From Hallerella porci (GTDB lineage Bacteria > Fibrobacterota > Fibrobacteria > Fibrobacterales > Fibrobacteraceae), in NCBI RefSeq assembly GCF_003148885.1, contig NZ_QGHD01000004.1, forward strand, positions 1 to 64,000: 64,000 nt of DNA. The letters are read 5' to 3'. Made by a program: the position numbers and the translations under genes. Below the pieces are notes generated by a model. It was not told the DNA's origin, searched no databases, and was given only the letters and a program-made list of their open reading frames with translations. This document shows, piece by piece, positions 13,725 through 57,072 of the stretch (positions within the stretch are counted from its first letter, which is position 1; each line of letters opens with the position of its first letter).

Positions 13725-13755
13725 AAAAAAAGCCCCCGAAAACGGGAGCTTTTTT
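13725..13755 (-). terminator. Terminator after rplM-rpsI
   Basis: GCTCCCG and CGGGGGC pair around a TTTT loop (13732-13749), followed on the minus strand by seven T. The plus strand also has a T run after the hairpin. It lies 21 bases after the rpsI stop and separates rplM-rpsI from rpsB. Confidence 0.88.
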
Positions 13756-13776: not shown

Positions 13777-14181
13777 TTAACGCTTGCTGAACTGGAAGTG
13801 CTTACGAGCCTTCTTGCGGCCGAACTTCTTACGTTCCACAGCACGAGAATCACGGGTCATGAGACCTTCTTTCTTGAGAGCGGACTTGTCTTCGGCGTTG
13901 TTTGCAACGAGAGCGCGAGCAATGCCCAAGCGAACTGCACCCATCTGGCCAGCGATTCCACCGCCATGAGCGTTCACTTCAACATCCCACTGGTCTGCAT
14001 TGTTGAGAACTGCAAACGGAAGGTTTGCAATCATATCTTGCACGTCAGAGTGGAAATATTCCTTAAAATCGCGACCATTGATGGTACGCTTGCCGGAACC
14101 CGGCTTCAAGATAACAGCAGCGATGGCGTTCTTGCGACGACCGGTGCCACGGTAGATCTTCTTAGATTTTGCGGTAGTAAT
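13777..14181 (-). CDS. rpsI: 30S ribosomal protein S9, apparent ATT start
   Basis: S9 sits in the head of the small subunit, with its C-terminal tail (QFSKR) reaching the P site. The conserved N-terminal block YRGTGRRKNAIA is coded upstream of the first in-frame ATG (14109), so that ATG cannot be the real start. The frame stays open back to a TAA and contains no ATG, GTG or TTG before this block. A strong GGAGG lies eight bases before an in-frame ATT (14181-14179), giving 134 residues, a normal S9 length. I therefore place the start at ATT. It lies 16 bases after rplM. A sequencing error is the main alternative. Confidence 0.9.
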   Translation of the reverse strand: MTTAKSKKIYRGTGRRKNAIAAVILKPGSGKRTINGRDFKEYFHSDVQDMIANLPFAVLNNADQWDVEVNAHGGGIAGQMGAVRLGIARALVANNAEDKSALKKEGLMTRDSRAVERKKFGRKKARKHFQFSKR

Positions 14182-14197
14182 AGAGATATCCTCCGTC

Positions 14198-14632
14198 CTA
14201 GAAATCGATGCTTACGGTTTCGAGGTGTTGGGCCGCGTGCGGCTGTTCCGCACCAGCGTAGATTTTAAGTTTCTTCAGCATCTTCTTGCCGAGAGAGCTG
14301 TGCGGGAGCATGCCCCAGATCGCTTCCATAAGCGGTTCTGTCGGGTGCTTTTCCATCAAAGCTTCGTAAGAAATCCAGCGTTCACCGCCAATGTGACCGG
14401 TGTGGTGGAAGTACTGCTTCTGTTGAGCTTTCTTGCCGGTGGTTGCAACCTTGCCAGCATTGATAATCACCACGAAGTCGCCAGTATCGACGTTCGGGGA
14501 ATAGATAGCCTTGTGCTTGCCCATCAAAAGGCGGGCAGCAGCGGTGGCGACGCGACCGAGAGGCTTGCCTTCGGCGTCGATGAGCTTCCACTGACGAGTG
14601 ACCGTCTTGGGGTTCACCATAATGGTTTTCAT
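14198..14632 (-). CDS. rplM: 50S ribosomal protein L13
   Basis: An early assembly protein of the large subunit, 144 residues. Family blocks are WKLIDAEGKPLGRVAT near the start, GDFVVIINAGKV, and MLPHSSLGKKMLKKL near the C-terminus. The frame is open to 14803, but the ATG at 14632 begins at the expected place and has AGAGGA seven bases upstream. It heads the rplM-rpsI unit, which ends in the hairpin at 13725-13755. Confidence 0.97.
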   Translation of the reverse strand: MKTIMVNPKTVTRQWKLIDAEGKPLGRVATAAARLLMGKHKAIYSPNVDTGDFVVIINAGKVATTGKKAQQKQYFHHTGHIGGERWISYEALMEKHPTEPLMEAIWGMLPHSSLGKKMLKKLKIYAGAEQPHAAQHLETVSIDF

Positions 14633-54921: not shown

Positions 54922-55674
54922 ATGACCCACACCCAACTCAAGAACTCAATTTTACAACTTGCCGTAAGCGGCCGCCTAGTAAACCAAATCGCAAGCGAAG
55001 GAAACGCAAACGACTTGCTTACCCAAATCCAAAAAGAAAAACAAAAACTCATCGCCCAAGGCAAAATCAAAAAAAGCAAAACTCAAAGCAGCATCTACAA
55101 AAAAGAAGGCCGCTGGTTCGAAAAATCCGGCAAAGAAGAAAAAGACATTACCGACGAACTCCCCTTTGAAATCCCCGGAAACTGGACATGGGCAAGACTC
55201 GGGGAAATTGGAGAATTTACTGGCGGAAAAACTCCAAGTTCAGAGAGTTTAAGAGCAGAAGGAAATATTCCTTACTATAAAGTTTCTGATATGAATAGAA
55301 TTGAAAATCAAAAGTTTATGATAAAAACAGAGGCATATTTAGATTCTTCTTATACTGGCAAATTGTTCAAAAAGAATACTATTATTTTCCCCAAAAATGG
55401 CGGTGCGGTTTTTACAAATAAAAAACGAATTTTAACAACGGACTCATTGATAGATTTAAATACAGGAGCCTTTTCTTTTTCAAATCAATTGGATTTAGAA
55501 TTTGTTTATCTAATGTTTCAAACAATTGATTTTAGAAAACATTACAAAGGTACAGCTTTACCAACGGTAGATACTGAAGAAGTCAAAAATATATTGTGGG
55601 GAATCCCCCCGCTAGCGGAGCAAAAGCGCATCGTCCAAAAAATTGAGGAACTCTTTAATACAATTAACAGTTGA
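54922..55674 (+). CDS. hsdS: Type I restriction-modification system, S subunit, half-length
   Basis: The specificity subunit, 250 residues with only one target recognition domain. The start MTHTQLKNSILQLAVSGRLV and the coiled-coil-like LLTQIQKEKQKLIAQGKI are typical of the N-terminus. Recognition-domain residues follow from about 88 (PGNWTWARLGEIGEF, then IPYYKVSDM). The conserved region LAEQKRIVQKIEELF near 228-242 is followed at once by INS and stop. Full HsdS proteins have about 400-450 residues and a second domain. Half subunits may work as dimers on symmetrical sites. The stop codon lies in an AATTAACARTTGA repeat also found at 56650, so truncation by that repeat is likely. Confidence 0.9.
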   Translation: MTHTQLKNSILQLAVSGRLVNQIASEGNANDLLTQIQKEKQKLIAQGKIKKSKTQSSIYKKEGRWFEKSGKEEKDITDELPFEIPGNWTWARLGEIGEFTGGKTPSSESLRAEGNIPYYKVSDMNRIENQKFMIKTEAYLDSSYTGKLFKKNTIIFPKNGGAVFTNKKRILTTDSLIDLNTGAFSFSNQLDLEFVYLMFQTIDFRKHYKGTALPTVDTEEVKNILWGIPPLAEQKRIVQKIEELFNTINS

Positions 55675-55694
55675 TAATTCACCGTTGATAATGG

Positions 55695-55743
55695 AGAGCT
55701 TCAGATTTCTAAGATCAAAGCTCTCCGCTCTAAGTTCTTAAAA
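55695..55743. repeat. 49-bp intergenic element, copy B
   Basis: Matches 6326-6374 at 42 of 49 positions (shared core ATTTCTAAG, then CTCTAAGTTCT). Like copy A it lies next to a 41-bp tandem array, here on its upstream side. Confidence 0.65.
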
Positions 55744-55838
55744 CCTTGTGCATAATTCGCCGAAGGCGGAGCACGGCTATGCCGTGCGCGCTCATTACTC
55801 ATAAAAAATGTCATTTCCAGAAACTGGAAGACAAATTT

Positions 55839-56301
55839 CTCCTCTAATTTCTTGCGGACTTATTTCCCCTGGGAAATTTCTTCTCTAATTTCTTGCGGAA
55901 TTATTTCCTCCGGGAAATGTCTTCTCTAATTTCTTGCGGAATTATTTCCCCCGCGAAATGTCTTCTCTAATTTCTTGCGGAATTATTTCCCCCGGGAAAT
56001 GTCTTCTCTAATTTCTTGCGGAATTATTTCCCCCGCGAAATGTCTTCTCTAATTTCTTGCGGAATTATTTCCTCCGGGAAATTTCTTCTCTAATTTCTTG
56101 CGGAATTATTTCCCCTGGGAAATGTCTTCTCTAATTTCTTGCGGAATTATTTCCTCCGGGAAATTTCTTCTCTAATTTCTTGCGGAATTATTTCCCCTGG
56201 GAAATGTCTTCTCTAATTTCTTGCGGAATTATTTCCTCCGGGAAATGTCTTCTCTAATTTCTTGCGGAATTATTTCCCCCGGGAAATTTCTCCTCTAATT
56301 T
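55839..56301. repeat. Tandem array, 41-bp period, 11 units plus a partial
   Basis: Units begin at 55839, 55880, 55921 and so on, every 41 bases to 56249, with a 12-base partial unit at 56290. The unit is CTTCTCTAATTTCTTGCGG followed by a palindromic ATTTCCCCCGGGAAAT-like centre. Variation is concentrated in that centre (CCTGGG, CTCCGGG, CCCCGCG). There are no spacers, so it is not a CRISPR array. Confidence 0.93.
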
Positions 56302-56439
56302 AATCGTGTAACTTATAGGTTACAATATAGACTTGAATACAAATTTTTACAAATATTTTGTAGTAAAATAAAAAGTTGCAGTTTATATTCATTACCACTT
56401 TCGCATGGGGCGAAAGTTTCAAATACTCATGGAGGCTTT

Positions 56440-56655
56440 ATGGCTCAAATTGAATCATTCAAAGTATCAGGGATTAACAATTCCGCTCACTTTATTTTTA
56501 TGAAAGAAATTGCAACGCGTGCTCTTGCCGACGAAGCAGTTTCAAAAAATTGTGCAGCGCAAGTTTCTGCCTTTGACTCTGCTTTAAAAGCAGAAGATGA
56601 ATGTTATTCTATTTCGCGTAAAAGTCTTGCAACCGATAAAATTTTATTCAATTAA
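56440..56655 (+). pseudogene. Truncated DUF6261-like protein
   Basis: The 71-residue product MAQIESFKVSGINNSAHFIF ... EDECYSISRKSLATDKI resembles the N-terminal third of DUF6261-type helical proteins (about 200 residues or more) known from Bacteroidetes-like genomes. It ends ILFN and stop exactly where an AATTAACAATTGA repeat begins. The ribosome site GGAGG is good, so the fragment may be expressed. The family assignment is moderate; no downstream continuation was found. Confidence 0.5.
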
Positions 56656-57072
56656 CAATTGACAATTGATAATGAACAATTATAGGGGATTTGAATTGAA
56701 AAACGATAATGTGATTGTTGAAAAAAGTGAAAATTTTGCAGTGCGAATTGTTCGATTATATCAATTTTTATGCGATGAAAAAAAAGAGTTTATTCTTTCA
56801 AAGCAACTGCTTCGCTGTGGCACAAGTATTGGTGCAAATATTCACGAAGCAACTCATGGCGAAAGCAAACTGGACTTTATTCATAAATTAAGCATTGCGT
56901 TAAAAGAAGCAAATGAAACATCTTACTGGCTTAGACTTTTATACAAAACCCAATACTTAACGCAAACACAATTCAAAAGTATCAACACAGACTGCAAAGA
57001 ATTCCTAAAACTTTTAACATCAATTATCAAAACGGCTAAGAAAAATCTTGATAATTGACAATTTTATAGCAA
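56649..57072. repeat. AATTGACAATT repeats flanking the four-helix-bundle gene
   Basis: On the left, CAATTAACAATTGACAATTG and following bases (56649-56685) contain the start codon of the gene at 56672. On the right, CTTGATAATTGACAATTTTA (57047-57066) contains its stop codon. A related sequence, CAATTAACAGTTGATAATTC, begins at 55661 at the hsdS stop. The flanks suggest a mobile or recombining unit. Confidence 0.55.
56672..57058 (+). CDS. Four helix bundle protein (23S rRNA intervening sequence family)
   Basis: A 128-residue helical protein starting MNNYRGFELKNDNVIVEKS, with FAVRIVRLYQFL, LRCGTSIGANIHEATHGESK near 50-70 and FIHKLSIALKEANETSYWL. These are the hallmarks of the family first found inside intervening sequences of 23S rRNA genes (TIGR02436), which form pentameric helical bundles. 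Here the gene is free-standing, and its start and stop codons lie within flanking AATTGACAATT repeats. The activity of the family is not established. It follows the truncated DUF6261-like gene and precedes two terminators. Confidence 0.88.
   Translation: MNNYRGFELKNDNVIVEKSENFAVRIVRLYQFLCDEKKEFILSKQLLRCGTSIGANIHEATHGESKLDFIHKLSIALKEANETSYWLRLLYKTQYLTQTQFKSINTDCKEFLKLLTSIIKTAKKNLDN

Follow-up and report, generated by a model that had tools for sequence, protein, structure and literature searches.

We report here that, in Fibrobacter and in many of its relatives, rpsI, the gene coding for the ribosomal protein uS9, lacks an ordinary start codon and very probably starts from AUU or AUC (AUY in the following), which bacterial ribosomes as a rule refuse as starts. 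The window, which is the whole stretch of 64,000 nucleotides analysed, comes from Hallerella porci (contig NZ_QGHD01000004.1 of assembly GCF_003148885.1, positions 1 to 64,000) and carries rpsI behind rplM, the gene for uL13. The position of the AUY start, its conservation and the strong Shine-Dalgarno (SD) sequence ahead of it, together with the lack of other starts and of an alternative initiator tRNA, were all read from genome sequences. The features of the locus are the following:

13777 to 14181, reverse strand: rpsI coding sequence (uS9, 134 amino acids) read from ATT, with its stop codon TAA at 13779-13777.
14179 to 14181, reverse strand: ATT start codon; among the relatives, the homologous codon is ATT or ATC, and ATG where a lineage has reverted.
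14190 to 14194, reverse strand: SD sequence GGAGG, 8 nucleotides ahead of the ATT.
14182 to 14189, reverse strand: spacer of 8 nucleotides between SD and ATT, ATATCTCT, of fixed length and variable sequence in the family of the window.
14198 to 14632, reverse strand: rplM (uL13), the 5' neighbour of rpsI in the same operon, with its stop codon TAG at 14200-14198, 16 nucleotides ahead of the ATT.
14212 to 14214, reverse strand: upstream TAA in the frame of rpsI, not in that of rplM.
13731 to 13750, reverse strand: hairpin and T run 3' of rpsI, AGCTCCCG-TTTT-CGGGGGCT-TTTTTT, by eye an intrinsic terminator, absent from the listing of the terminator scan.

The original prediction had stated that the rpsI frame holds no ATG, GTG or TTG between the preceding in-frame TAA and the conserved N-terminal block of S9, and both its coordinates and its description were correct: from the TAA at 14214-14212 to YRGTGRRKNAIA, the conserved N-terminus of uS9, we counted zero such codons in frame. 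It had also placed a GGAGG eight bases before an ATT giving an S9 of normal length, which was confirmed by the reading frame and by the match of the 134-residue protein to the S9 model NF001099 (171.4 bits for a cut-off of 112, profile positions 3-130 of 130). At its C-terminus, QFSKR, the protein keeps the canonical SKR tail, as seen in the alignment to solved S9 chains. The earliest canonical in-frame codon, TTG at 14109-14107, leads to a protein of 110 residues without the first 20 or so positions of the S9 model; a start at this TTG was rejected, since it would remove the conserved N-terminus of uS9. A sequencing error was rejected as well, the same codon class being present in dozens of independent genomes, one of them a single contig. 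We give practically no weight to an explanation of the locus by an assembly or sequencing error or by the downstream TTG.

The search for the start codon in relatives covered 168 genomes of the phylum Fibrobacterota, with start regions read for a wide selection of them; f1 designates the family of the window (Fibrobacteraceae) and f4 a second family of the same class. In the genus of the window, all five rpsI-bearing genomes, including a single-contig one, showed ATT at the rpsI start position. Nearly all genera of f1 exhibited ATC within a near-constant site, CGGAGGATA(AA/CC)TCTATC. The start-region pattern GGAGGATANNNNTATYNCTAC was found in 66 of the 111 f1 genomes, in one copy each except for two genomes, for which two copies were listed; the same pattern read backwards, as a control, gave 0 matches across the 111 genomes. 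Two further f1 genomes (L164 = G145; L025 = G099) carried ATC within a variant site, and ATC or ATT was present in 8 of the 10 f4 genomes, with other spacers (L174-L177, L262-L265). In total, about 76 species-level genomes have an AUY rpsI, from at least nine genera of f1 and from eight f4 genomes. The 86 loci with AUY at this position, in which some genomes are counted twice because they are in two collections, comprise 77 ATC and 9 ATT, and none of the 86 contained ATG, GTG or TTG, whatever the frame, between the SD and the 18th nucleotide past the AUY. None of the start regions read had ATA at the start position. The alignment of relatives that the original prediction had proposed as a check thus showed ATT kept in the genus and ATC or ATT beyond it, a wider distribution than had been guessed.

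At the homologous position, ATG was found in part of the genus g6, in G150, in f2 and in two f4 genomes; since the AUY position is exactly that of ATG in these related lineages, it aligns with true starts. In Fibrimonas-like genera, the rpsI ATG lies further upstream and adds an N-terminal extension, and f5 has ATG. In the rest of the phylum, rpsI starts with TTG in most genomes examined and with GTG in one (L194). A weak rpsI start is thus common in the phylum. Outside the class, TTG is the rpsI start in most families, and it usually stands within ATT-TTG-GAA-AAC or a similar sequence (L185-L191, L195-L197, L274-L280). On a tree built quickly from L13+S9 (96 rows), a switch between AUY and a canonical start had to be assumed only 7 times, and AUY may have arisen either once, before the f1/f4 split, or twice. 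The two families share AUY with different spacers (GGAGGATAAATCT-ATC versus GGAGGATATC-ATC and GGAGGCATCCC-ATC), which indicates that the start codon and the SD persist while the spacer changes. We observed also that rpsI of one metagenome-assembled genome of the succinogenes group (L070 / L181, G137) is interrupted by one internal TGA, with split best matches, possibly because of an assembly error.

The distance from SD to start was 8 nucleotides all through f1 and 5-8 nucleotides in f4. The calculated SD duplex energies were mostly between -9.5 and -10.3 kcal/mol at AUY sites (exceptions: L025, -5.8, and L176, -7.5) and mostly about -6.6 kcal/mol at ATG sites (exception: L054/L168, -9.5); counted by rows, GGAGG was present in 50 of 52 AUY rows and in 1 of 27 ATG rows. 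An altered anti-SD was ruled out, CCTCC being kept at the 3' end of the 16S rRNA, which reads GGATTACCTCCTTT in the complete sister genome G005. A 16S 3' end was also read as GGATTACCTCC (L282-L285), with an intact anti-SD core, and that of E. coli is GGATCACCTCC at the same place. No hairpin masking the rpsI start site was found (fold z-scores of 0.5 to 1.0), and no known RNA leader was matched in Rfam at gathering score.

The rplM stop lies 12-31 nucleotides from the rpsI start in AUY loci, and a distance of 23 nucleotides was read from the sequences of four loci. Upstream, the rpsI frame stays open almost as far as the rplM stop, as it would have to be if ribosomes went on from rplM into rpsI, by a frameshift or by readthrough, and uS9 were released from the extended product by processing. 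Such an extension requires that the frame of rpsI relative to rplM stay the same, whereas all three relations (8, 6 and 7 of 21 distinct intergenic sequences) and several spacings were present across species, so that readthrough, frameshift and fusion products are excluded. With ATG at the same position in sister species as a further argument against it, we attach next to no credence to this explanation.

The presence of similar starts elsewhere in the genome of the window (G000) was investigated by a codon-usage scan of a 447-kb sample with 364 called genes. A first, stricter threshold listed only a prfB-like gene and was loosened since rpsI was missed, the sensitivity of the scan being limited for short genes. 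The looser scan gave two clear genes with a coding signal far upstream of any canonical start, rpsI and the prfB-like gene, and nine weaker cases with no near-cognate codon and SD nearby; within the sample, a near-cognate codon preceded by an SD was seen for rpsI alone. A genome-wide permissiveness for such starts was rejected, as the 364 genes included no other AUY-type start. The prfB-like gene (L297, G000:C1 about 55648-56664) has the longest coding signal upstream of a canonical start in the sample and, judged by eye, looks like prfB with a programmed frameshift. In the S10-spc-alpha region, the ribosomal-protein genes were read with ATG except for one GTG, in calls for which the script offered canonical starts only, and the GTG-start gene, in the alpha-operon region (G000:C12, L287-L290), looks like rpsK (S11).

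These results bear on the possibility that AUY is a true start without regulation, i.e. a weak start that is tolerated, offset by the strong SD and by the coupling to rplM, maintained because codon and SD balance one another, and that reflects static tuning or drift. Lineages returned to ATG on several occasions, and most of these carry a less strong SD, GGAGA, which is what one would predict if net strength alone mattered; the short distance to the rplM stop in AUY loci fits such a tuning as well. However, AUY is one substitution away from ATG and yet has been kept in many genera of two families, which suggests that it is favoured, and its restriction to rpsI in the 447-kb sample also speaks against simple tolerance. 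We hold such an unregulated start to be possible, with less than even confidence.

We investigated also how AUY could be decoded. The complete sister genome G005 contains three tRNAs with a CAU anticodon, one of them with initiator features (C1/A72 mismatch and three G-C pairs in the anticodon stem). The sole tRNA-Ile(GAU) found in this genome is located directly before tRNA-Ala(UGC), about 90 bases past a 16S gene, and has no initiator features; no alternative initiator tRNA was present among the tRNA genes found there. A second initiator tRNA with a GAU anticodon would read AUU and AUC as cognate codons and would agree with the absence of ATA at the site, but the location and the features of the sole GAU tRNA, together with the CAU anticodon of the initiator-type tRNA, make it very improbable. 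Since there is one initiator-type tRNA, with CAU, and the only GAU tRNA belongs to an rRNA operon, the ordinary CAU initiator tRNA likely decodes AUY by a third-base mismatch.

IF3 is encoded and aligns with solved IF3 chains across both domains. In vitro, weak third-base pairs are excluded by IF3 (PMC10158994), and AUU, AUC and AUA are among the codons that IF3 discriminates against (PMC4611024); an IF3-type control of rpsI would fit this general biochemistry. The original prediction had drawn a comparison with the rare IF3-linked AUU starts, of which infC is one. This comparison calls for caution: in nearly all of the Fibrobacteraceae genomes read (L129-L158, L198) the start of infC is TTG, and in G146 it is ATG, so the classic autoregulation of infC by AUU is absent in f1. 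We found no correlation that would point to a swap of starts between infC and rpsI, infC having TTG in nearly all genomes read, whatever their rpsI start.

Taken as a whole, the data are likely best explained by AUY as the real start of rpsI, compensated by the SD, probably coupled to rplM and sensitive to the discrimination by IF3. We infer for this start a lower efficiency, an IF3 sensitivity, a coupling to rplM and a regulatory use, which might be brought about as follows. The ordinary initiator tRNA (anticodon CAU) would read AUY with the third base mismatched, the strong GGAGG 8 nucleotides upstream would offset the weak codon, and ribosomes fresh from the end of rplM, 16 nucleotides upstream, would probably help to do so. 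Third-base mismatches are selected against by both the P site and IF3, so that the output of uS9 per mRNA would be lower than from AUG and would go up when discrimination is relaxed or when IF3 is scarce compared with 30S subunits. The codon would then serve as an inherent limit or sensor for a single ribosomal protein.

Several points weigh against this explanation. Like uL13, uS9 is needed in one copy per ribosome, so that a strongly inefficient start would be costly; the return of several lineages to ATG implies that AUY is dispensable; initiation in Fibrobacter may be less strict than in E. coli; and the link between AUY and a strong SD, counted by independent changes, is 4:0, which is not significant (sign test, p = 0.125).

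The C-terminal tail of uS9 offers another route to regulation. A study by Arora et al. in 2013 reportedly concerned the S9 tail in initiation fidelity. As the tail touches the initiator tRNA, 30S subunits short of uS9 might discriminate poorly, translate the AUY rpsI and thereby restore uS9. Arg128 of the uS9 tail contacts the anticodon stem-loop in initiation complexes (PMC5037330), shortening S9 at its C-terminus perturbs the P site (PMC3617221) and the SKR tail is present in Fibrobacter uS9; however, 30S subunits without uS9 may fail to initiate altogether, and we regard this self-sensing as quite unlikely. That rpsI would be a feedback sensor of initiation fidelity, with AUY used whenever the P site is insufficiently guarded by IF3 or by the uS9 tail, so that uS9 would adjust its own production by way of the discrimination to which it contributes, seems to us fairly unlikely.

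Judged from its sequence, rpsI joins the small set of genes with IF3-excluded start codons, as no AUG, GUG or UUG is available, a near-cognate codon stands at SD distance and this codon is conserved among relatives. Another ribosomal-protein gene with a weak start is rpsT (S20) of E. coli, which begins with UUG. According to the title of a 1988 study by Parsons et al., this weak start is said to affect efficiency and autoregulation. In contrast to AUY, UUG is mismatched at the first base and is not excluded by IF3 (PMC4611024). With infC, which codes for IF3 and starts with AUU, AUC or AUA under IF3 autocontrol, rpsI shares the mismatched third base, the conservation among relatives and the expected IF3 sensitivity (PMC5472188, PMC4611024); unlike infC, which has TTG here, it codes for a structural ribosomal protein, and it may be under a similar control by IF3. 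The S. aureus genes cvfC1 (AUU), ccpN and infC (AUA) also combine a conserved non-canonical start with a strong SD (PMC13009471), but they are not ribosomal-protein genes and their SDs extend towards the start codon, whereas rpsI has GGAGG and an 8-nucleotide spacer. The output from these conserved S. aureus starts is about 10% of that from AUG, and up to 30% for ccpN (PMC13009471). Rare starts limit expression in E. coli pcnB (AUU) and in Streptomyces sigR (GUC), the latter being repressed by IF3 (PMC5472188); the products there are low-abundance regulators or enzymes, whereas that of rpsI is a stoichiometric part of the ribosome. Finally, the rplM-rpsI operon of E. coli, with the same gene order, is repressed by uL13 (PMC10931766), but this control acts via the 5' untranslated region of rplM, with no described role of the rpsI start codon.

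In the open-licence text of PubMed Central, we found no report of a conserved AUU or AUC start in a bacterial ribosomal-protein gene. The AUY start of rpsI spans two families of one class, and a gene finder that accepts only ATG, GTG and TTG is expected to shorten or overlook rpsI in the genomes with AUY. The synthesis of the essential uS9 may hinge in these bacteria on the stringency of the ribosome towards the start codon. The repeated switches between AUY and AUG provide a comparative system in which a weak start codon is balanced against SD strength, and let one ask whether start-codon stringency controls ribosome composition. If rpsI were indeed a fidelity sensor, an AUU feedback of the infC type would have moved to a ribosomal protein that contacts the initiator tRNA itself.
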